A stretch of 22,109 nt of DNA from a virus: positions 1 to 22,109 of the IMG/VR virus record IMGVR_UViG_3300018405_000069. One strand, 5' to 3'. How positions within the stretch are numbered: the stretch's first letter is position 1; each line of letters opens with the position of its first letter. The notes beneath the pieces were generated by a model. It did no database searches and was not told the origin of the DNA. It saw only the letters and a list, made by a program, of their open reading frames with translations. Made by a program: the position numbers and the translations under genes. Positions 4,732-22,109 of this stretch are shown here, in pieces.

Positions 4732-4760
4732 AATATACTGGCTGAGCTTGTTATTTTCAA
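4732..4760 (-). promoter_or_regulatory. Strong sigma70-like promoter inside the end of the helicase-loader gene
   Basis: On the minus strand TTGAAA (4760-4755) and TATATT (4737-4732) have exactly 17 bp between them, each one mismatch from consensus. The -35 overlaps the stop codon of the DnaC-like gene. It should start transcription near 4725 and drive the accessory operon beginning at 4675. Confidence 0.65.
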
Positions 4761-5644
4761 GAAACTTTTGAGCGATAACTGTCCCAGTCGAATAACACTG
4801 CTCGCCCGCGCTCTGTCAGGCGGTCGTACACCGGTTTGGTCAACCACTCTTCCAGCTGCGCCTTGGTCTGCATATTGGTGATGATGACCGTAGGCCGGTC
4901 CAGCTCATAACGCCCGTTGATGATGTCGTACATCAAGACCTTCTCGGTCTGGCTGTTGTGACTGATACCCAGTTCGTCGATCACCAGCAGGTCGCGGCAC
5001 ACAAAGGCGTTGATTACGTCCTGCTCTTTGGCGCCAGCATCCTTCCCGCCATAGGTTTCTTTGATCGCCCGGTACATGCGGGCAGCGGTGATGTACGTGG
5101 TACTGGCGCCGTGGCGGTGGCCAATCTCTTTCACCATCGCGCAGGCCAGATGCGTCTTGCCATTGCCAACATTGCCCATCATCACCATCGACGCGCCGGT
5201 TTTCAGGCAGACAGGAAAGTTGTCGACGTAGCTCTGGCACACCCTGACAGCCTTTTCCTGGCGCTCGCCCCCTTCCCCCATCTTGTAGTTCTCAAAGGTG
5301 GCGTTAGCGAACTTGGCCGGGATACCCGATGATGAAATCAGTCGGTTGCTGGCGCGGGCAAGCGCTTCACGCCGCTGGGCTGCGCGCTCATTCCGAGCTT
5401 CCCAGTCGGCCGCTTCCACCAGACACTGCGGGCATTTTGACCACCGCTCTTCGCCCTCTTCCCCGTACAGCGAGGCCTCATACACGCCGTGCACCGAACA
5501 GGTCTTTGAGCCGCGCTTTTTGACGCCCAACGCATGATCCATGCCGCGCTGGATAATCTCGCCAATACCGCCCATCAGCTCGGCACCGCTCTTCATGCCC
5601 CGGCCGTCGGGGCTCTGCTTCTCTTCCAGGCCGTCCGTTTTCAT
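4757..5644 (-). CDS. DnaC/lambda-P-like replicative helicase loader (AAA+ ATPase)
   Basis: 295 residues. The C-terminal AAA+ domain carries Walker A (GNVGNGKT, residues 157-164), Walker B (LLVIDELG, about 219-226), a sensor-1 region (VIITNMQ) and a late Arg-containing helix (VYDRLTERGR). This is the pattern of DnaC/IstB-type helicase loaders. The N-terminal part has Cys49, His52, Cys71 and Cys74 and may form a zinc-binding knuckle, followed by a charged helical linker (residues 80-100). It should deliver the host replicative helicase to the origin marked by the upstream initiator. Its ATG overlaps the stop of the initiator gene (ATGA), matching the lambda O-P arrangement. Confidence 0.9.
   Translation of the reverse strand: MKTDGLEEKQSPDGRGMKSGAELMGGIGEIIQRGMDHALGVKKRGSKTCSVHGVYEASLYGEEGEERWSKCPQCLVEAADWEARNERAAQRREALARASNRLISSSGIPAKFANATFENYKMGEGGERQEKAVRVCQSYVDNFPVCLKTGASMVMMGNVGNGKTHLACAMVKEIGHRHGASTTYITAARMYRAIKETYGGKDAGAKEQDVINAFVCRDLLVIDELGISHNSQTEKVLMYDIINGRYELDRPTVIITNMQTKAQLEEWLTKPVYDRLTERGRAVLFDWDSYRSKVS
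4764..4781 (+). repeat. Direct repeat, left copy, bounding the replication module
   Basis: An 18-bp element, ACTTTTGAGC-G-ATAACTG, within the last codons of the helicase-loader gene. It matches the copy at 6849-6866 at 17 of 18 positions in the same orientation. The two copies bracket the initiator plus loader genes. Confidence 0.7.
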
Positions 5645-6837
5645 AGCGCGAAACTCCCATCGTCGTTTTCCGCAAACTCGTCCTCGCCTACGGTCCCCAC
5701 TGTGTTCCCGGTAGCGGGATCAATCAGCGGTATGTCGTCGTGCCACCGCTCGTTGTTCAGGTAAGTGGTTGGGTGCAGTCGATCAAAGCCAAACACTTTG
5801 TTGTCCAGGCGCCGGTGCACGTCCAGTATCAGCTCGTCGGCAAAGTCCCCTGGCGACTGATTCAGGTCTTTGCACTTGCGCTCGAACGCTTTCCTTGCCT
5901 TCAGCTTATCAACTTTCCGCATTCCTGCTTTCCAGTACCGCTCAAATGCCGACGCTACACTCTCACTTTCGCCGTCATCGGATGCCTTCTCTGCGGCCAA
6001 CACGCTCCGAGTCAAGCTGTCTGGATTACGCCGCTCCCCCCTCGGCTCATCGTCCGCGAGGCCGTCGCGGTGATTACTGGTACTCTGATCCTTGGTACCT
6101 TGATTACTGATTAACTGATCTGTTGGAAAATTTTCCACGCTTACATTGGATTTTTTTCCAACTTTACCGTTGCTTTTTTTCCACTCTGCATTGGAGTTTT
6201 TTCCAAGGTTGGATTTTTTTCCACTCTTATCCATGAACTCTTTCATGGTCATGTCTGACTTTGACCTGTTGCAGAATCCGCACAAGCATTGCAGGTTTTC
6301 TGCATTGTCCCCACCTCCCTTCCATGGTGGAGTTTTGTGGTCCAGCTCAGGGGCATCGTTCGATGGCGTGCCCGCTTTATTCTTATCTGTAATCTTTCCG
6401 CATCCCTGGCATTCGTACCTGTCGCGCTCAAAAATCTCTGCCTTAATATCGTCTGGCTTCCGCTTTTTGCACCTATAGGGCTTCTTCCGATTATGGAATT
6501 TTTCTATTTCTTCTTCAGACAGCCGGTAATCCGTATTCCACAAAAGACCTTTTCCGGTGATCCTGACAAGCGTTCTTCGATTGTCGCTCGCAAGCTCTAT
6601 GAGGCCCTTCTCTTCTAAAACCTTCAGTATCTTAAAAACCGTGTTTGGCTTGTCACTGATTATTGGTAACTCTTTAGTGATTTTGCTTTTCGCGATATGA
6701 AAAAAACTCTCTCCATGAAACTCAACTGTCGTTGCCCAGGTTGGAACCGAATGAACGAAGGCAAAAACTATTGCCTGCTGCACGTTAAGTTGCCACTCCA
6801 CGGATCTGACTTGATTTACAAATATGCCGAACTGCAT
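5641..6837 (-). CDS. Lambda-O-like replication initiator with an embedded HNH domain
   Basis: 398 residues in three parts. Residues 1-105 form a winged-helix DNA-binding domain of the type found in phage O-like proteins (MQFGIFVNQVRS, then PNTVFKILKVLEEKGLIEL). Residues 133-195 are an HNH nuclease-type domain: CQGC, LDHKTP, then NLQCLCGFCN, so two Cys-x2-Cys pairs and the His-Asn core are present. Residues 205-240 are a low-complexity linker with repeated GKKSN, encoded by the origin iterons. Residues 293-365 resemble the O C-terminus that recruits the loader (AFERYWKAGMRKV, YLNNERWHDD). AAGGTG lies 6 nt before the ATG. It should bind the iterons and hand over to the DnaC-like protein. Whether the HNH domain cuts DNA is unknown. 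Confidence 0.85.
   Translation of the reverse strand: MQFGIFVNQVRSVEWQLNVQQAIVFAFVHSVPTWATTVEFHGESFFHIAKSKITKELPIISDKPNTVFKILKVLEEKGLIELASDNRRTLVRITGKGLLWNTDYRLSEEEIEKFHNRKKPYRCKKRKPDDIKAEIFERDRYECQGCGKITDKNKAGTPSNDAPELDHKTPPWKGGGDNAENLQCLCGFCNRSKSDMTMKEFMDKSGKKSNLGKNSNAEWKKSNGKVGKKSNVSVENFPTDQLISNQGTKDQSTSNHRDGLADDEPRGERRNPDSLTRSVLAAEKASDDGESESVASAFERYWKAGMRKVDKLKARKAFERKCKDLNQSPGDFADELILDVHRRLDNKVFGFDRLHPTTYLNNERWHDDIPLIDPATGNTVGTVGEDEFAENDDGSFAL
6123..6223. other. Predicted replication origin: five iterons inside the initiator gene
   Basis: Five copies of a dyad-symmetric element with consensus TTGGATTTTTTTCCA lie at 6123-6137, 6146-6160, 6170-6183, 6191-6205 and 6209-6223, spaced 18 to 24 bp apart. 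Two copies (second and fifth) are identical; the third is one base short with a changed left arm. The tract is strongly AT-rich compared with its surroundings. Iterons within the coding sequence of the O-type initiator are the hallmark of lambda-type origins, so this is the probable ori. Established for lambda; inferred here. Confidence 0.75.
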
Positions 6838-6848
6838 GATTACACCTT

Positions 6849-6866
6849 ACTTTTGAGCTATAACTG
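6849..6866 (+). repeat. Direct repeat, right copy, bounding the replication module
   Basis: ACTTTTGAGC-T-ATAACTG, the partner of 4764-4781. This copy lies just upstream of the initiator start and contains the TATAAC that could serve as the -10 of the small RNA at 6871. Confidence 0.7.
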
Positions 6867-6870
6867 ATTG

Positions 6871-6969
6871 CCAGTGCTCACCAAGTCGATTACCTTAGAG
6901 GCTCGCTTGGTGAGCTTCCCCTTACTGGGCGTTTCCTCTTGTTGGGCTACTTCGGTAGCCCTTTTTTTT
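6871..6969 (+). ncRNA. OOP-like antisense small RNA opposite the initiator leader
   Basis: On the plus strand, opposite to all neighbouring genes, about 99 nt fold into a long hairpin followed by a perfect terminator. The hairpin arms are 6876-6885 and 6906-6915 (10 bp, perfect), extended by CCAGT (6871-6875) with ACTGG (6924-6928). A TATAAC -10 lies at 6859-6864 with only a weak -35; an alternative promoter is TTGATT 6811-6816 with CATGAT. No protein gene ends at this terminator. In lambda the OOP RNA occupies the same place, antisense just upstream of gene O. The transcript itself is inferred. Confidence 0.6.
6944..6969 (+). terminator. Intrinsic terminator, UUCG tetraloop
   Basis: GGGCTAC (6944-6950), loop TTCG, GTAGCCC (6955-6961), followed by eight T residues. 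The stem is perfect and the U-run occurs only when read on the plus strand, so it terminates rightward transcription. It ends exactly at the stop codon of the minus-strand RuvC-like gene. Confidence 0.9.
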
Positions 6970-7453
6970 ATTGCCCAGCGGAGACCAGCCCACAACGCCC
7001 AATCAAAAGGGCGTCACCCAGAGCCTGACCCTTGGCCTTCAATGCCAGCTCTTTTATGTGGGGGTACAGTTGCACGCACCGCCCCCGACTGGCGTCCTTC
7101 TCCTTCCCTATCAACCCTGCATGCTTTTTCCAGACCTGGGGGGTGAGGTAGGTGCAGGGTATCCCCATACCGGCCACCACGCCCTTCACACATCCGTAGG
7201 CGTCACCGAACTTGAACGACGCCGACGCGCTTTGCTTCTGGCCGTTCTTGTTGATCCCGCCAACTTTCTCGATAAAGCAATGCTCAAACTCCCCGTGACC
7301 GAGCAGGAATTCCCGCACCGCCGGAACGTTTACCTGGTTATCGTTGCCCACCTTCATGGTCGGCATGAACAAGTGGTCGATGTGCTTGCCGCTTCCGTCG
7401 ATAACTGCAATTGCTCCGGCCAGTCCGGGGTCTATCGAAACGTACTTCTTCAT
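6968..7453 (-). CDS. RuvC-like Holliday junction resolvase
   Basis: 161 residues with the RNase H-like fold of RuvC. The first strand has the catalytic Asp (YVSIDPGLAGAIAV). A second strand ends in an acidic residue (HCFIEKVGG). The C-terminal pair is KEKDASRGR and ALGDALLIG, giving the expected four acidic residues. Phage members of this family resolve recombination or replication junctions before packaging. It lies directly after the 87-residue gene (adjacent, ATG at 7453) and before the replication genes, and acts in the cytoplasm on branched DNA. Catalytic assignment is from motif order. Confidence 0.8.
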   Translation of the reverse strand: MKKYVSIDPGLAGAIAVIDGSGKHIDHLFMPTMKVGNDNQVNVPAVREFLLGHGEFEHCFIEKVGGINKNGQKQSASASFKFGDAYGCVKGVVAGMGIPCTYLTPQVWKKHAGLIGKEKDASRGRCVQLYPHIKELALKAKGQALGDALLIGRCGLVSAGQ

Positions 7454-7717
7454 TCAAAACTCCAACATGGTTGCTTGCCGTAATTCGGTCATGTCGCAGA
7501 CTGCGCGCCCTGCGCTGGCGTTACATGCCGGGTGTCGCTTTCCGTTTATCCAGCCTGACAGACCGCCTTGCCATCCTGGCCACACGCTCAATATTCCCTT
7601 TAACTCTTCATCCCAGTACCAGTTCCTCGCGTCTCTCAGCCAAATTAGCCGAAGGTCAGAACCTGGCTCTGTATCATCATTCGGACCGTTCGGGTTTGGC
7701 TGCGGCGCATATACCAT
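7454..7717 (-). CDS. Hypothetical Trp-rich phage protein, 87 residues
   Basis: Begins MVYAPQPNPNGPNDDTEPGS and continues with aromatic, Trp-rich sequence (WLRDARNWYWDEELKG, VWPGWQGGLSGW). The frame remains open further upstream, but that part is a shadow of the DUF1364 gene. I chose the ATG at 7717 because AAGGAG lies 8 nt before it. It overlaps the end of the DUF1364 gene by 73 nt and abuts the RuvC-like ATG. I do not recognise a characterised family. Confidence 0.65.
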   Translation of the reverse strand: MVYAPQPNPNGPNDDTEPGSDLRLIWLRDARNWYWDEELKGILSVWPGWQGGLSGWINGKRHPACNASAGRAVCDMTELRQATMLEF

Positions 7718-9144: not shown

Positions 9145-9920
9145 TTAGAACGGAATCATTAGTGTTCAGGCCGGATCGCTAAGCCGGCCCCGCCTTTCGG
9201 CAGCTACCTGTTTCCAGGCAGATCAGACCATATCATCACCTGCTTGAGGTGGCCCCCGCTTCCGCTCGCTTGAGCGTACGCCTTTCGGCTGGTCGTTGAA
9301 CGTTCCCTTTTGGGCTTCGCTGCTGATTGTCTTCGGCTTCATCCGGTCAGAGTTCCCAGCAATTCAAGGGCTTTTCACTGCCGCATCGCTACGGCAGGCG
9401 ACATTTATTTATCGTCATCAAAATCATCCGCCGGCTCTGGCAGACTGCCGCCGCCTTGGTGGCTTCCATGGTTGCCAGACCCGCTTTGGGAATACTGGTG
9501 GTACTGATTCTGACCGGCTCGCTGCTGGCCCTGGCTGGCGCCTTTCTGATTGCCCTGCTGGCCGTCACCTTGCGGCTTGCTGTCCAGCATCTGAATCTGA
9601 CCGTTGATATCAACCACCACTTCGGTGGTGTAGCGGTCCTGGCCGTCCTGCCCCTGCCACTTTCGAGTTTGCATCTTCCCCTCGACGTAGAGCTTGGACC
9701 CCTTTCGGCAATACTGGGAGACGATTTCCGCCAGCTTTCCGAATACCACCACCCTATGCCACTCGGTCTTCGGCACCTTCTGCCCGGTGCTCTTGTCCTT
9801 GTAGCTTTCATCGGTGGCGAGATTGAGATTCACAACCGGGTTGCCGCTGGGGGTGTACCGGGTGTCTGGATCCTGCCCCAAATTTCCGATGAGAATTGCC
9901 TTGTTTACACCCCTGCTCAT
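9145..9920 (-). CDS. ssb: Single-stranded DNA-binding protein, gene interrupted by a group I intron
   Basis: The coding sequence is split: exon 1 is 9920-9411 (170 codons) and exon 2 is 9156-9145 (ATT CCG TTC TAA). Residues 1-112 are the OB fold ([47 protein letters not shown]). Residues 113-160 are a Gln/Gly-rich linker, and the spliced end is DDFDDDIPF, the canonical tip that docks repair and replication partners. Without splicing the frame ends DDFDDDK at 9405. The spliced protein is 173 residues, normal for SSB. It covers single strands during phage replication and recombination. Its ATG overlaps the stop of the upstream regulator. Confidence 0.92.
9157..9410 (-). ncRNA. Group I self-splicing intron, td-like (IA2-type), no ORF
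   Basis: 254 nt. Conserved core: GUUCAACGACCA (9301-9290) and GAUAUGGUCUG (9234-9224) give P7 as GACCA/UGGUC. Pairings (minus-strand coordinates): P1 CGAU (exon, 9414-9411) with GUCG (9402-9399), including the U-G at the 5' splice site; P10 AUU (9156-9154) with AAU (9405-9403); P2 9397-9392/9383-9378; P3 9371-9366/9257-9252; P4 9362-9357/9325-9320; P6a 9314-9312/9307-9305; P7.1 and P7.2 with loops GAAA and AAGC; P8 9251-9247/9241-9237; P9 9221-9215/9210-9204; P9.1 and P9.2 (9189-9184/9174-9169). It ends UGAACACUAAUG with the terminal G at 9157. The core closely resembles the T4 td intron as I recall it, with a compensatory pair change in P7. Confidence 0.93.
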
Positions 9921-10378: not shown

Positions 10379-10399
10379 TAAATCAAGAGGAACGCAATC

Positions 10400-11524
10400 A
10401 TGCACGATAGAGAAACGTTAACGTTCGACACGGAAGAGCAGTGGCTGGCCATGCGCCGGGAAGACCTGACCAGTACCGAGTCGTCCGCGCTGTTCGGCGT
10501 GTCGCCCTACAACACCGAGTACCAGCTGTACCACGTCAAGCGTGGCGATGTGGATGGTTGTATTGAGCAGAACGAGCGCATGAAGTGGGGCAACCGCCTG
10601 GAAGCGGCCATTGCCGAAGGCGTGGCCGAAGATTACGGACTGATTGTTGAGCCCTTCAAGGTCTACATGCGCCTGCGGGATCGCCGCATCGGGTCGAGCT
10701 TCGATTACAAGATTGTCGGCATCACCGACACCTTTGAGGGCGACGACGAGACTTACCGGGATCTGTTCCGTCAGCTGGGCGAGGGCCTTCTGGAAATTAA
10801 AAACGTCGATGGCTTCATCTTCCGCAAGTCGTGGTCCGAAGAAGACAGCGAAGTAGAGGCGCCCCCGCACATCGAGTTCCAGGTGCAGCACCAGATGCTG
10901 GTGTCCGGCCTGCAGTGGGGCGTGCTGGCCCCTTTGGTGAACGGCAATACGCCCAAACCCACCTATCGCGTTCAGAGTGACAAGGTGCATGAGGGCATCC
11001 TGAAAAAGGCGCAAGCCTTCTGGGCCAAAGTTGACGCCGGAACCCCGCCGGAGCCGGATTTCTACCGCGACGGCGACACCATTGGCAAGCTGCTGCTGGA
11101 TGACGACGACACCGAAGAAGACATGACCGATAACCAATACCTTGCGCAGCTGTGTCAGGAAGAGATTGAAGCCGGCATTGCCAAGCGTGAGGCTGAAAAA
11201 GAGCAAAAGGCGAAGAAGGCGGAAATCCTCACCATCATCGGGCATCACCGCAAGGTCGTCGTCGGCGGGATCAACGTCAATGCCAAGACCGTCAAAGGTT
11301 CGGACGGCGAAACCCTGACGCCGGATGACATTGGCGAGCGCATCGGGGCTCGAAAAGGCGGCACCCGGATACGCATCAGCCAGTACCAGGTGCGGGACAA
11401 CCCCGGCAAGGTGGTGGATGAAAGCATGATTGGCCAAAAGGTTGGGGAGCGCAAACCCCACCGCACGCCGAAGCTCACCCAGCCCAAACCCAAAGCCACC
11501 AAGAAGAAGGCCAAGCAACCATGA
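10400..11524 (+). CDS. YqaJ-type phage recombination exonuclease
   Basis: 374 residues. The N-terminus (REDLTSTESSALFGVSPYNT) is the YqaJ signature. It is followed by KWGNRLEAAIAEGVAEDYGL (motif with the first acidic residue), then SSFDYKIVG (Asp) and GLLEIKNVDG (Glu-x-Lys), completing the PD-(D/E)xK nuclease core in order. Residues 230-374 are a Lys-rich extension unlike the usual compact enzyme, ending KPKATKKKAKQ, and may contact DNA. This is the lambda-Exo counterpart: it resects double-stranded ends to expose single strands for the annealing protein encoded next. The stop overlaps the ERF start (ATGA), so the two are coupled. AATCAAGAGG gives a strong ribosome binding site. Confidence 0.85.
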   Translation: MHDRETLTFDTEEQWLAMRREDLTSTESSALFGVSPYNTEYQLYHVKRGDVDGCIEQNERMKWGNRLEAAIAEGVAEDYGLIVEPFKVYMRLRDRRIGSSFDYKIVGITDTFEGDDETYRDLFRQLGEGLLEIKNVDGFIFRKSWSEEDSEVEAPPHIEFQVQHQMLVSGLQWGVLAPLVNGNTPKPTYRVQSDKVHEGILKKAQAFWAKVDAGTPPEPDFYRDGDTIGKLLLDDDDTEEDMTDNQYLAQLCQEEIEAGIAKREAEKEQKAKKAEILTIIGHHRKVVVGGINVNAKTVKGSDGETLTPDDIGERIGARKGGTRIRISQYQVRDNPGKVVDESMIGQKVGERKPHRTPKLTQPKPKATKKKAKQP

Positions 11525-12381: not shown

Positions 12382-12589
12382 GCTGCCCCCCATCGATCAA
12401 CGGGCATGGCTCACCGAGTCGGAACTGGCCGCGCGCCTGGGGTTCCAGTCGAAAGACTGGTTCTCCAGGCTGCGCAGGGCCAGTCCGGACCAGTACCCAC
12501 CGGTGGCCACCCACCTGAACCAGAAGCCGCTGAAGTTTATGAAAGCGGATATCGAAGACTTTGAATCAAGAGGAACACCCCATGAGTGA
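12374..12589 (+). CDS. Small AlpA/excisionase-like DNA-binding protein
   Basis: 71 residues starting MDKLPPIDQRAWLTESELAA. The core (WLTESELAARLGFQSKDWFS, then a wing ending FMKADIEDFES) resembles the MerR-like winged helix of excisionases and AlpA-type regulators. In-frame ATG codons further upstream exist, but 12374 is best placed after GGGGAG and overlaps the ERF stop. It might regulate this operon or act as a recombination directionality factor; no integrase is in the window to support the latter. Confidence 0.65.
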   Translation: MDKLPPIDQRAWLTESELAARLGFQSKDWFSRLRRASPDQYPPVATHLNQKPLKFMKADIEDFESRGTPHE

Positions 12590-16245: not shown

Positions 16246-16407
16246 ATGATAGATCGAAAACGACGTAAGATCCGGCGCCCAGAGGGTTTTTTAAACTTGC
16301 GCTGGGATATGGACCGGAACAACGAATACCGTATGGCAGTGATCGGATTCATCGTCAGTCTCGCGATTCCTCTGGCACTATTCATCGCCCCCTTCCTCCT
16401 GCGGTGA
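16246..16407 (+). CDS. Possible 53-residue membrane protein on the opposite strand
   Basis: Begins MIDRKRRKIRRPEGFLNLRW, a strongly basic cytoplasmic segment, and ends with one hydrophobic helix (MAVIGFIVSLAIPLALFIAP). AGGA lies 7 nt before the ATG. It would be the only plus-strand gene in the late region and its end overlaps the 3' end of the giant gene by 30 nt. Such isolated, opposite-strand membrane genes are often phage 'morons', for instance exclusion proteins. A competing minus-strand frame covers the same DNA, so the call is moderate. Confidence 0.45.
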   Translation: MIDRKRRKIRRPEGFLNLRWDMDRNNEYRMAVIGFIVSLAIPLALFIAPFLLR

Positions 16408-19400
16408 CAAAATCTCGTTGATGCCAAAGGCTTCGCGCATGCGTTCGGCCTGGCTGCGAGCCCCGGTACGCTCACGCCCATAGGTGGATTGAACGCCTTC
16501 CATTTCCCGCATGATGCGGTTGTTTAGGGCCTGGTCACCAATCTGGATCAGGCGCGACGGATCTTCCACGCTGTCGTTGTGCTCTTTGATCTCCATAAAG
16601 ATTTGTTCGATTTTGTTATCCAGCTCCAAGCGAAGTTCCGGATCCACCGTTGTCTCGGCCTGCACAATGTTGCGCGCCAGATCGTTCAGGAAGCGGGTCT
16701 TCTTCTTGTAGATGGCAGTTTCCGCCCGGTACTGGGCGTATTCGTAATCGCGAATGCTGGTTACCGCCGAATCCTGGAAGCCAATCATTTTCTTGGCGAC
16801 CATGCCTGGGGTTACCTGCTCGGGCAGCAGCAGGCGCCGACCCTGACCGTCCCGGATGCCGTCGTTCGCCCAGCTCATGGCGGTCATGGGGTTTTTCACA
16901 AAGTTCGGCATGAACTCGGCAGCGGCCCCCACGTAATCCCCTTGTGTCACCTGTTTGAATGAGCGGGTCGGCCGGCCAATGAACAGGTCGGCGGGGATGC
17001 CCAGCATTTCGGTTGGCGTTTTTGGCAACAGCTCACCCAGGCCGATGCGGCTCAGGTCAATGCCCAGCGGGTAGCCGGCGCCCTTGGTGGCGTATTCCGC
17101 CAGCCATTGCTGGCCGGTGGTGTCGTTAATCCACAGGCGCAAGTCGGTTTCCAGATCCTTGTCTTCTTCGGTCAGCAGTCTGAACAGGTCTTCAATCAGA
17201 CCCTTGAGTTCTTCGCCGCCGGGGAAGCCCCACAGCCCGCCCAGGTTGGTCATCATGGCCAGAGACGCGGCGGCCGCCATCTTGCCTTGCTTGCCCTGAA
17301 CGCTCATCCAGCGGTACCAGGCTTCCAGCGACTGCATCATGAAGCTTTTGAACTGCATGATGGGCGCACCAATGCCGCGACTGATGCGAGGCCGGTTGAC
17401 CTTGCCCATGCGGTACTGGGTCTCGTAGATCATGAACTCGCCGATCTTCTTCGGCGACAGCTCGCCGTTGGGTCCGAACAGCTGCGCCTGCGCCAGCGGG
17501 TTGCCCTTGTAGGTGTCGCGAAACTTCGCTTCCCACTTCGGGGTTTTCGCGATGCGGGTGGCAGCGATAAACGTAACCAACCGGTTCAGGCGCTCTACCG
17601 CCGTGAAGGTGTAGGCAATCACCTGAATGCTTTTTTCAAACTTGCGGCGGACCTGACGCTGGCCAACGCCACGAGCTCGAGCAGTGGCCATCACCTCGTA
17701 GGTTTCCAGCGGCACAAAGGCGCCTTCGCCCCAGGCTTCGGCCAGCTCCTGTCGGACATCGGCCGGGGCGGCGTCTACGTCAAATACCTGCAGTCCGGTC
17801 TTGCGGTTGAGCCGGAACATCTTTAGCGCATCCTTGTACGCCCGCGCCACTTCCCGGGTGGCGGTGGCGTGACTGGATATCATGCTCAGTGCCGGCATGG
17901 TCATCACCGGCACCTGCGTGCTGTTGACCGCGGCGGTCGACAAGTTGCCGGCAATGTACGACAGGAAGCCGATTTGCCGGACCATGGCAAATTCTTCCAC
18001 CGGATCGTTGATGTAAGCGCGGTATTCCTTGGTGTATTCGTACACGCGCGGCGCCTTCATGTCTGACAGCACATCATCCCAGGCTTTCGCGTAGTGGCGA
18101 CGAGCCAGGTACCCGCCCATGCCGGCGATGTACTGGGAAATGTTGCGCTCGAAGTCCACGCTGTAGCCGGGCGTGTTGTCGGACCGGAAGAAGTGCCGGC
18201 GGAAGCTTCGACCCTTAACCTCGTCTTCCATCTGGCTCCGGATAATCTCCCATTGGGCATTATCCACGCCGGCCAGGCTGGCCAGATTGTCCATTTCGCT
18301 CAGGCTGACATTCTCCTGATTGATCTGGGACGGAGCAAAGGCGGTGATTTCCCGGCTCGGATGGCCTTTCACCCACTGGTCGTTGATGTCCTTGATGGCC
18401 TTTTTCACGGCCGGAATGTCCGACACCCGGCCATCGGTGTTGCCCAGACGGCGGATACTGAAGGCATCACGCAGACCGGTTTCAACCTTGGTGCTGTACA
18501 CCACCCGTTCCACATCGTTTCGGAAATCCTGATACTGCTGCGGGCTCAGGTTGGCGGTGCCGTCCTCGTTCACTGTGCCGCCCACGGCTTCGACTACCTC
18601 GAAGTAGGTTGGCGACAGGCCGGATACCAGCATCTGGTCTCCTTGGCGCTCAACGGTCATGCCATCCGGCGTCTGCTTAACCGTCACCACGTAATCGCCA
18701 TGGCGGGACAGGGGCACATAGCCTCGGCGTTTGGCCTGCTCGATTTCCTCGATGGTTTTGGCAATTTGCACCAGCCGCTCAAGCTGCTTGGTCGGAATCA
18801 TCGGGTTGGCGTTGACCTCTTCCATGATGGCCTCGGCGGCGCTGTCCATGCCCACGTATTCGTCCAGCCCGAACTCGCGTAGCATCTGGCTTTTGAAGTA
18901 GTTCAGGGCGTCATCAAACATCTGGCGCAGGTTGCCGTAGGCTCGGGCCTGCTCATCGGTGAGCGTAATCACCTCGCCAGGCTTGCTGAGCTCAAGGTGT
19001 ATCCGCTCTTCGATCACCCGGGCGCTGCCATAGTCGTCCAGCTCTACGCGATCCACGGTGCTTGGCACTTCGATGCCTTTGGTCAGGCCCTTGTAGGTGT
19101 AGTTGTTGCCGATGATCCGGCCCAGCTCCAGCACCTGGTTAACCTTCGCCTTGCTGGCCTTGTCCAACATCATGTACGGGTTGTAGGTGCCGTACAGGGT
19201 GTCGATGATGCGATCACGCATCTCAAACTGACTGATGGCCGTGACGTAAGCGGGGGTGAACTGCTCATGCAGGGACGCCACCTGACGCGGGTGCAGCAGG
19301 AACTTGGCTACGCGGGTCATGTCGCCCACCACCTTGCCAGACTTTACTTTCGGGTCCGGCTCACGGGTTTTCAGGGCCTTGATGGCGTCCGCCAGTACCT

Positions 19401-22109
19401 TTTTCTCTGCCTGCCGGCGCTCTCCTGGCTTCATATCGCTGACTCTGGGGCCGCGAGACAGATACGGCTGCGCGTTATCGCCCATGCCCCGGGTTACCAG
19501 GCTGCCTGCTTGAGCGGCTCGCCGCTGGCGTTGCTGGCTATCCTGATAGACTTCCTGCGCCAGTGCGCCAATCTGTTCATCGGTGATGCCATCTTTGAGC
19601 CCGCCTTGTCTGGGCGCATGCTCCTGCAGGATACCGCGAACTTGCTCGATCATGTCATCCATGTCCACGTAGCTCGGACTCAGGTAGTCGGCATATACCC
19701 GCGCGATCTCTTCTTCAATAGATGCCTCGCTGTTGGCGAAGTCGCCCCGGCCTTTGAGAAGATCCCGCAACATAGGCACCTGGGCGGCCGCGTTGGCGTC
19801 ATTATCCGGAACACCCAGGCCGTCTTCGTCCAGGTCAAACATGGCGCTGTCGATGCGGTCGTAGGCCTCGGTCAGAGTGGCGTCCAACTGCTCGGCCAAC
19901 GCCAGCTCGCCATTTTCATAAGCTTCGGTGACGCGATTCGCGAGGCCTGGCACCGCCTCGATCAAACGGTCCAGCGGCATGTTGGCTACGTCATTGGTGC
20001 CTTTTCTGCTCAGGTATGGGTCAGGGACAATCACGCGGTCCGGGTCAAACGCCACGTAGTGGTAGGTGCCGCCTTCGCCGGTGTAGTCAAACACGACACC
20101 GTCGTGACCTTGCGCGATTAGTTTTTCGCGTAGAGCTTTCGCTTCTTGCGGAGAATCAAAATCCGGCGCAGTGCCGGTGGTGTAAATCTTGGGGCTGCGC
20201 AGATCCAAGCTGTACGCGGTGGCCGTGCCATAAGCGCCGGCTTCAGCCCTTGAGCTTGAGAACCACACCCCCAGGTGCGCGCTGGGGTTGCCAGATGAAA
20301 AGCCCAGGCTTTCGTTGCTGAAGTGATTCGGTCTTAGTGAATCGTTGGCGCCCCGGTAGACAACGGCCGGGCTTCCGGACTCGTCTCGGATGCGCGTTTC
20401 TTGTCGCCAGCCGTTGACAGCTTTCCTTCCTGTAACAGTTGTGCCAGCGGCTTGCCGTTGGCGCCTTTGTTGTTGTTGATAACGGGTGATGGCTTCTTGG
20501 GTTTCGGCATTGTTGGCTCCCTCTTGTACCTCCATTGTAGGCAGATCTCTGCCGCGATTGAAATACACATCGTCTTTCCCGCGAACTGCAATCTCACCGT
20601 TGCGCACAAACCGCTCCGCTCCGCGCAAGATGCTGTTGAGGTCATTGCGGTTGGGTCGGATGGTGAAACCAAGACGACGAAGGGCGTTTTGCACGACGCC
20701 CTTTACCCGGGCCCACAGCTTGTTGTGCCCGTTGGTTTCGGCCAAGTGCGCCAGCAGCTCGGCACCCACGCGCACACGGTGCTCTTTGATGGAGGCGCTG
20801 AATTTCTCGTCTGTGAAGTAGTCCTTGATGATCTTCTTGGCCTCCGGCGTGCCCCGGAAGTTCTGGAAAATCTGCTGGGCCGCGCCCTCAAACTGCGGAC
20901 CGAAGAAACCCATCACCCCGTAGTGGCCGATGCCTTCGTGCAGGATGGTGGCCTGCAGGGCGTTGGCGCTGGGTATATTGGGCAGGTAAAAATACATGGC
21001 GCCATCCCAGTACACGCCGGTGAAGTCCTGTTGCGCGCCATTGTCTTTGACGTACCTCTGCAAGGGGTCGGGCAGATCACTGAAGCGCTCGGCGCTGACC
21101 AAATCCGGGGCATTGTCCCAGCCGCGCATGATGTTTCCGGGCTGGGTGAATCGATCCACCAAGCGCCGCGTCATACTACCGGCTTTTTCGGTATTGCGGC
21201 GTAGGTTTGGGGTCTCCGTGTCCGGCGCAGTGCTATCCATCTGCTCTTGCGCCCACAGCTGAGCGTCTTTTTTGGTGTTAAACCCGGTGTCTGGCTGGCC
21301 CTGGAACCGAGCCTGCCCTTCGGTGACCACGAACCAGCGACCCTTGGCGTCACCAGACCTGCCTTCTTCGACGGTGTAGCGACTGCTACGGGTCAGCACC
21401 GGGGCTTCTTTGTCCACCACTTCCGGCGGTTCAAAGGTGCGCTCTTCGTACAGCTCAAAGCCTTGTGCGTCCTTCACTTCCATGTACGGAATGGCAACGG
21501 TTTTGCCCTCGGCGTTTTCGGCCAGCACAAACCAGCCGTCCTTGTTCCAGCGGTGCCCGGTGACCGTATAGGGCTTGCCCTCCCACAGCACCTCGGTTTC
21601 CACCGGGGCGCCGGTGCGCAGCCAGGCCGGCGGTGCCACCGGGTTTTGTTGCAGATCCGTTTCCAGCGCGGCCAACTGATCCTGCTGTCGCTTAAGGTCG
21701 TCAGCGTAGGCAAAGGGCTCATCCTGTATTTTTTCCGCGCGTGCCTTGGACGCTTCCGCCTCCTGCACGTCGGCGCGCATCTTCTCCAGTCGCTCGTTCA
21801 CGCCGCGCAGCGTGGCTTCCAGGCTCTGCAGGCCCAGCGAGCCGGTGTTGATTACCACGTCGTTGCCGTAATCAATACCGATTGCGGATCCGGCCTGAGC
21901 CCCAAACAGGGCGTGCAGGGTCATATCCCCATACTGACCGATGGCATCTTCACGGGCCGAACGACTTGGGCTACTCTGCGCCTGGCGGCTGACACGCTCA
22001 CTGATTCCCGCCAGCGCCACCTTGGCCTCGGCACGCTCGGTGTAGGTTTCGCCCTCAATGGTCATTGAGAACGAGTCGCCAACGCTGCCTTTCAGGGCCT
22101 GCTCAGTAC
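16378..22109 (-). CDS. Giant phage polyvalent protein, C-terminal 1.9 kb of residues (5' end beyond right edge)
   Basis: At least 1910 residues; the frame is open across the right edge, so the Met at 22065 is internal. Numbering from that Met: 1-140 is the helical extension (TYTERAEAKVALAG, coiled coil near 80-140) that usually follows methyltransferase/helicase domains in DarB-like proteins. Residues 150-270 hold two small beta-rich modules. Residues 370-440 are a zincin-type metallopeptidase with HEGIGHY (376-382) and a downstream Glu (RVGAELLAH). Residues 565-685 resemble an ADP-ribosyltransferase (VYRGA, WFSSSRAEA). From about 880 to the end is a long helical C-terminus of the large polyvalent-associated type. 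Such proteins are packaged in the capsid, injected, and thought to protect phage DNA or modify host targets. Confidence 0.8.
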   Translation of the reverse strand, partial: TEQALKGSVGDSFSMTIEGETYTERAEAKVALAGISERVSRQAQSSPSRSAREDAIGQYGDMTLHALFGAQAGSAIGIDYGNDVVINTGSLGLQSLEATLRGVNERLEKMRADVQEAEASKARAEKIQDEPFAYADDLKRQQDQLAALETDLQQNPVAPPAWLRTGAPVETEVLWEGKPYTVTGHRWNKDGWFVLAENAEGKTVAIPYMEVKDAQGFELYEERTFEPPEVVDKEAPVLTRSSRYTVEEGRSGDAKGRWFVVTEGQARFQGQPDTGFNTKKDAQLWAQEQMDSTAPDTETPNLRRNTEKAGSMTRRLVDRFTQPGNIMRGWDNAPDLVSAERFSDLPDPLQRYVKDNGAQQDFTGVYWDGAMYFYLPNIPSANALQATILHEGIGHYGVMGFFGPQFEGAAQQIFQNFRGTPEAKKIIKDYFTDEKFSASIKEHRVRVGAELLAHLAETNGHNKLWARVKGVVQNALRRLGFTIRPNRNDLNSILRGAERFVRNGEIAVRGKDDVYFNRGRDLPTMEVQEGANNAETQEAITRYQQQQRRQRQAAGTTVTGRKAVNGWRQETRIRDESGSPAVVYRGANDSLRPNHFSNESLGFSSGNPSAHLGVWFSSSRAEAGAYGTATAYSLDLRSPKIYTTGTAPDFDSPQEAKALREKLIAQGHDGVVFDYTGEGGTYHYVAFDPDRVIVPDPYLSRKGTNDVANMPLDRLIEAVPGLANRVTEAYENGELALAEQLDATLTEAYDRIDSAMFDLDEDGLGVPDNDANAAAQVPMLRDLLKGRGDFANSEASIEEEIARVYADYLSPSYVDMDDMIEQVRGILQEHAPRQGGLKDGITDEQIGALAQEVYQDSQQRQRRAAQAGSLVTRGMGDNAQPYLSRGPRVSDMKPGERRQAEKKVLADAIKALKTREPDPKVKSGKVVGDMTRVAKFLLHPRQVASLHEQFTPAYVTAISQFEMRDRIIDTLYGTYNPYMMLDKASKAKVNQVLELGRIIGNNYTYKGLTKGIEVPSTVDRVELDDYGSARVIEERIHLELSKPGEVITLTDEQARAYGNLRQMFDDALNYFKSQMLREFGLDEYVGMDSAAEAIMEEVNANPMIPTKQLERLVQIAKTIEEIEQAKRRGYVPLSRHGDYVVTVKQTPDGMTVERQGDQMLVSGLSPTYFEVVEAVGGTVNEDGTANLSPQQYQDFRNDVERVVYSTKVETGLRDAFSIRRLGNTDGRVSDIPAVKKAIKDINDQWVKGHPSREITAFAPSQINQENVSLSEMDNLASLAGVDNAQWEIIRSQMEDEVKGRSFRRHFFRSDNTPGYSVDFERNISQYIAGMGGYLARRHYAKAWDDVLSDMKAPRVYEYTKEYRAYINDPVEEFAMVRQIGFLSYIAGNLSTAAVNSTQVPVMTMPALSMISSHATATREVARAYKDALKMFRLNRKTGLQVFDVDAAPADVRQELAEAWGEGAFVPLETYEVMATARARGVGQRQVRRKFEKSIQVIAYTFTAVERLNRLVTFIAATRIAKTPKWEAKFRDTYKGNPLAQAQLFGPNGELSPKKIGEFMIYETQYRMGKVNRPRISRGIGAPIMQFKSFMMQSLEAWYRWMSVQGKQGKMAAAASLAMMTNLGGLWGFPGGEELKGLIEDLFRLLTEEDKDLETDLRLWINDTTGQQWLAEYATKGAGYPLGIDLSRIGLGELLPKTPTEMLGIPADLFIGRPTRSFKQVTQGDYVGAAAEFMPNFVKNPMTAMSWANDGIRDGQGRRLLLPEQVTPGMVAKKMIGFQDSAVTSIRDYEYAQYRAETAIYKKKTRFLNDLARNIVQAETTVDPELRLELDNKIEQIFMEIKEHNDSVEDPSRLIQIGDQALNNRIMREMEGVQSTYGRERTGARSQAERMREAFGINEILSPQEEGGDE

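Follow-up and report, generated by a model that had tools for sequence, protein, structure and literature searches.

The locus analysed here raises the question of what a strong intrinsic terminator is doing on the plus strand of a phage gene block that is read leftward, with no plus-strand gene ahead of it. The window, by which we mean the whole stretch of DNA that was analysed, is a 22.1-kb virus record for which no close DNA relatives were found among phage records. Its leftward genes run from 10219 to 737 and encode a regulator, SSB, two small proteins, a NinB-like protein, YbcO, a RuvC-like protein, an initiator, a loader and more. A rightward recombination operon begins at 10400 with a YqaJ/RecE-type exonuclease, followed by a probable Erf-like annealing protein (named by eye). 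The far end of the contig is occupied by a single 1895-aa open reading frame (16378-22065, minus strand). The genes around the terminator are as follows.

6968 to 7453, minus strand: RuvC-like Holliday junction resolvase, the gene before the predicted RNA (phrog_1770, E 8e-32).
5641 to 6837, minus strand: replication initiator-like gene with an HNH insert (phrog_11527, E 9e-40; phrog_270, replication initiation, E 1e-13; HNH).
4757 to 5644, minus strand: DnaC-like helicase loader (phrog_50, E 3e-61; Pfam IstB, E 8e-20).

Between ruvC and the initiator gene, a gap of 130 nt holds a set of plus-strand elements that can be read as a small RNA, lying opposite the leader of the initiator gene. They are listed here with the evidence for each; the relative is a second phage, found through its RuvC.

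6859 to 6864, plus strand: candidate -10 box TATAAC, read directly, without a -35.
6870 to 6969, plus strand: predicted small RNA of about 100 nt, from its fold, with the end taken from the terminator and the start deduced from the -10 box.
6871 to 6928, plus strand: 5' stem-loop, GCTCACCAAG/CTTGGTGAGC with outer CCAGT/ACTGG, from sequence and fold; in the relative this place is taken by a 10-bp stem of unrelated sequence.
6932 to 6940, plus strand: seed of anti-Shine-Dalgarno type, TTTCCTCTT, identical in the relative and largely unpaired in both folds.
6944 to 6969, plus strand: intrinsic terminator GGGCTAC-TTCG-GTAGCCC-T8, from a terminator scan and shuffles, kept in the relative, where two stem pairs have become G-U.

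The terminator, GGGCTAC-TTCG-GTAGCCC-TTTTTTTT, has a perfect 7-bp stem, a UUCG loop and a run of eight T residues, and is the sole perfect-stem terminator of such strength within the 22-kb window. None of 200 dinucleotide-shuffled versions of the window contained a comparable terminator (the shuffle-test script scored the site twice, owing to its long T run). The earlier note is upheld in its description of a UUCG-loop, eight-T terminator that serves no plus-strand gene. The inverted repeat upstream is perfect over 10 bp (6876-6885 and 6906-6915, with a gap of 20 nt), and its extension, CCAGT at 6871-6875 and ACTGG at 6924-6928, can pair only across an 8-nt bulge. By chance, 0.66 inverted repeats of 10 bp are expected in a window of this size; one such repeat by itself is not surprising, and the combination of terminator and inverted repeat is. 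The RNA from 6868 to 6969 folds with -40.5 kcal/mol (z -5.1), a value equalled by none of 200 shuffles.

The start of the predicted RNA is placed near 6870 because this position fits TATAAC as a -10 box. No recognisable -35 is paired with it and a promoter scan with a threshold of 9 matches in 12 gave nothing at this site; judged by consensus, the candidate promoter is weak. The inverted repeat with its extension and the TATAAC were all described earlier and are all found at 6859-6928. The RNA region had been drawn from 6811, which is too far upstream; about 6870-6969 is what fits the -10 box. The 3' end falls on the second base of the stop codon of ruvC, an overlap of at most 2 nt, in line with the earlier view that the RNA merely touches the end of the RuvC-like gene.

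Searching with RuvC as bait identified one relative phage, represented by three contigs (including L002/L124), with a RuvC identity of 66%. The relative retains the order regulator-ssb-ninB-ybcO-ruvC (43-74% identity) and three other genes further on, and the replication module between ruvC and those three genes has no similarity to that of the window. Opposite ruvC, about 3 nt past its stop, the relative carries the terminator ACGGGCTGC-TTCG-GTGGCCCGT-TTTTATTT, with TTTCCTCTT and a 10-bp stem-loop ahead of it, the latter unrelated in sequence to that of the window; the RNA folds with a z of -5.3. About 10 nt ahead of the stem-loop is TTGTCC-17-TATTGT (by eye), which matches the consensus at 8 of 12 positions and is under the scan threshold. 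Fourfold codon sites are close to saturated between the two phages (identities of 41% for ruvC, 26% for ninB and 40% for ssb), and the alignment of terminator and linker is nearly perfect, with only 1 of 2000 shuffles as good.

The two base changes in the stem are informative as to strand. In the RNA opposite ruvC they turn U-A into U-G and A-U into G-U, and on the ruvC strand the same changes give C-A mismatches, so that the relative's hairpin has -9.7 kcal/mol on the RNA strand versus -4.5 on the ruvC strand. Since the changed pairs hold only opposite ruvC, the apparent target of selection is an RNA made from the window's plus strand, as far as two sequences and two base changes can indicate. 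A plus-strand RNA of about 100 nt opposite the initiator leader, proposed earlier as the simplest reading, gains from the relative keeping its terminator specifically on this strand. Neither the replication genes nor the 5' stem-loops are related between the phages, so the break in homology falls inside the RNA: its 3' half stays with ruvC, and its 5' arm varies with the replication genes.

The phages also differ elsewhere among the leftward genes. Between ybcO and ruvC the window has 191 nt without a clear gene (7454-7644), and these two genes abut in the relative. The ssb gene of the window is interrupted by a group I intron at 9145-9410, minus strand (Rfam RF00028, 82.5 bits). The unspliced frame closes with DDFDDD-K-stop where the 5' splice site is inferred (after 9411); ATTCCGTTCTAA comes after the inferred 3' end of the intron at 9157. 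Because ATTCCGTTCTAA encodes I-P-F-stop past the intron, spliced ssb would regain the SSB tail DDDIPF, and the unspliced mRNA would yield an SSB that lacks the protein-binding tip; the ssb of the relative, with no intron there, reads DDFDDDIPF.

The most conserved part of the RNA, absent from the earlier note, is the 9-nt single-stranded linker of anti-Shine-Dalgarno type between stem-loop and terminator, which is identical in the two phages and largely unpaired in the folds of both RNAs. An RNA that acts purely in cis as an antisense requires no fixed linker sequence, and the conserved linker therefore points to pairing in trans as well. Any linker containing CCUC can pair with Shine-Dalgarno sites. 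CU-rich linkers are the seeds of the anti-Shine-Dalgarno RNAs AbcR, MmgR and NfeR1 (PMC7143759).

We lean, without great confidence, towards the explanation that 6870-6969 (plus strand) is a phage small RNA gene, antisense within the gap between ruvC and the initiator, with a seed for ribosome-binding sites. That there is an RNA gene here at all is likely, as a prediction; its transcription and its pairing in cis and in trans we infer. The transcript would start near 6870, form the 5' stem-loop, expose single-stranded UUUCCUCUU (6932-6940) and end at the UUCG terminator at 6969, and would thus run counter to the leftward early operon, across the gap between ruvC and the initiator. In cis, it may pair with read-through mRNA, and its synthesis may collide with leftward RNA polymerase, as for lambda pO/OOP. 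In trans, the seed would most likely pair as well, with purine-rich ribosome-binding sites of phage mRNAs, and perhaps host mRNAs, and so block their translation. The best candidate for such a target is the recombination exonuclease gene yqaJ.

10384 to 10395, plus strand: candidate trans target, the ribosome-binding site CAAGAGGAACGC of the yqaJ/RecE-type exonuclease gene (10400 to 11524), from seed pairing.

Pairing of the seed with this site covers 9 bp + 3 bp in the window and 12 bp in the relative, and the summed energy for both phages is equalled by 1 of 3000 shuffled linkers. Under a null that preserves the core (TTCCTC kept), a fraction of 0.008 of linkers match that summed energy. Among ten gene pairs common to both phages, ybcO and yqaJ have the best pairing with the linker, better than 99% of linkers that retain the TTCCTC core. 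Cognate linker-yqaJ pairs are no stronger in energy than swapped pairs; the longest exact matches do favour the cognate pair but the pairing energies do not, and we do not claim co-variation of seed and target. The trans role is thus best treated as a lead. The window contains the 10-mer CAAGAGGAAC at three places (2578-2588, 10384-10393 and 12567-12576), each time as a ribosome-binding site, and the relative has AAAAGAGGAAAT, likewise a ribosome-binding site, ahead of two genes.

Among the RuvC and YqaJ neighbourhoods scanned, the element has one independent relative; about 75 further RuvC neighbourhoods lack the arrangement, as do 25 further ones around YqaJ. In epsilon15, Tyrion, Microcystis and Pseudomonas phages, the surroundings of RuvC have no synteny with the window, and those scanned are without the element. 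With the initiator protein as bait, no relatives were found in viral contigs; phiAH14a, Medea1 and LKA5, related to its N-terminus, have different neighbouring genes. A pattern of TTTCCTCTT plus UUCG terminator, searched across viral contigs, recovers the three contigs of the relative, and the rest are almost all acidic coding repeats; a match in L013 falls in a short intergenic gap of an unrelated phage. A looser pattern adds two matches behind probable structural genes, with no shared gene. Shortly past ruvC, L036 (2498-2600) and L040 (1958-2060), whose RuvC identity is 49-50%, carry a GC-rich hairpin with a T run on the opposite strand, unrelated in sequence.

By layout, a close known system is lambda OOP/pO, which shares the arrangement of upstream gene, antisense RNA, initiator and loader, and has its own terminator; its short RNA, too, is read from immediately before the initiator gene in the direction of the upstream gene. 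The window has both the opposite-strand position before an O-like initiator and loader, and the intrinsic terminator. What is missing is any long overlap into the 3' part of the upstream gene: OOP overlaps 52 bases of cII (PMC5869508), whereas the predicted RNA shares at most 2 nt with ruvC. OOP triggers RNase III decay of cII, and the upstream gene here is ruvC. OOP acts on cII, and the stability of O-P mRNA is reported to be unaltered (PMC3985674). The conserved anti-Shine-Dalgarno linker of the predicted RNA also sets it apart from OOP. The initiator ribosome-binding site, at about 6843-6849, is outside the predicted RNA, which falls about 20 nt short of it. With so small an overlap and this site missed, neither ruvC nor the initiator is an obvious antisense target. 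The likeness to OOP drawn in the earlier note consequently holds for position and antisense layout but is in doubt for the target.

In its working parts the predicted RNA resembles another set of RNAs, the alphaproteobacterial suhB/MmgR, AbcR and NfeR1, which have variable stem-loops, an unpaired CU-rich anti-Shine-Dalgarno motif and a terminator. MmgR is an Hfq-dependent anti-Shine-Dalgarno RNA (PMC7143759). The nearest Rfam family is suhB/MmgR (RF00519; 35.7 bits, E 2e-6), CCCUU..UGGGCGUUUCCUC agrees with the suhB consensus, TTTCCTCTT supplies an unpaired CU-rich motif between stem-loop and terminator, and the U8 tail is compatible with Hfq dependence. Membership of the family is rejected, as the score is below the cut-off of 41 bits and the RNA of the relative scores only 11.4 bits. 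Unlike suhB/MmgR, the RNA here is phage-borne and antisense to a replication operon; the resemblance is probably one of working parts, and family kinship is doubtful. That the predicted RNA is a new variant of known phage regulatory RNAs is plausible.

A purely cis-acting, OOP-like element, in which the RNA or its transcription lowers initiator expression and the linker has no targets elsewhere, seems to us rather unlikely, for all that it has in its favour. The position and layout are those of lambda cII-oop-O-P, lambda pO interferes with rightward transcription (PMC3985674), and the 5' arm varies as the replication module does. Known antisense RNAs do cover initiator leaders: the repABC ctRNA also has its gene in the gap before an initiator, on the strand opposite the operon (compared by layout), and is a plasmid-borne RNA of 55-59 nt that controls repC (PMC10194956), compared with about 100 nt predicted here in a phage. 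ArrA, the antisense RNA of Bacillus subtilis dnaA, is antisense to the 5' untranslated leader of an initiator gene (PMC12112137). ArrA is chromosomal and from Bacillus, whereas the predicted RNA is in a phage. We know of no conserved anti-Shine-Dalgarno linker in ArrA. Against action in cis only, the predicted RNA does not include the initiator ribosome-binding site, the linker is conserved although such action does not demand it, and a promoter-like TTGGTG-16-TATAGC on the minus strand of the region (by eye) could start the initiator mRNA past the overlap.

It is decidedly improbable that the terminator is only a roadblock, halting stray rightward transcription against the leftward operon with no dedicated promoter and no regulatory RNA. 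The terminator is strong and the promoter weak, and the opposite-strand sites past ruvC in L036 and L040 would suit this role, but it leaves the conserved linker and the stable 5' stem-loops of both phages unexplained. We consider it very unlikely that the inverted repeat works at the DNA level, as an operator or origin element, instead of forming an RNA stem: a perfect 10-bp repeat does lie beside a replication gene, and the relative has two inverted repeats there with an HTH-like small gene adjoining, but apart from the two arms themselves the window has no further exact copy, single-mismatch matches are scattered, and terminator and linker go unexplained. Least probable of all is that AAGAGGAAA, on the leftward mRNA, is a leftover or working ribosome-binding site past ruvC with a hairpin ahead: sites of the AAGAGGAA type do act as ribosome-binding sites elsewhere in both phages (CAAGAGGAAC, AAAAGAGGAAAT), but neither phage has an ATG, GTG or TTG at a usable distance past AAGAGGAAA, and the relative's hairpin is broken on that strand.

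Returning to a small RNA with a seed for ribosome-binding sites, if it is made, unrelated replication modules would have a small RNA at the lambda-type antisense position before the initiator, and module exchange could cut through the RNA gene yet retain a functional seed and terminator. A further possibility, which we think unlikely, is a dual-function RNA with an exchangeable 5' arm matched in cis to the replication module and a fixed 3' half that represses recombination genes such as yqaJ in trans. If so, one RNA would couple replication to recombination across module swaps.
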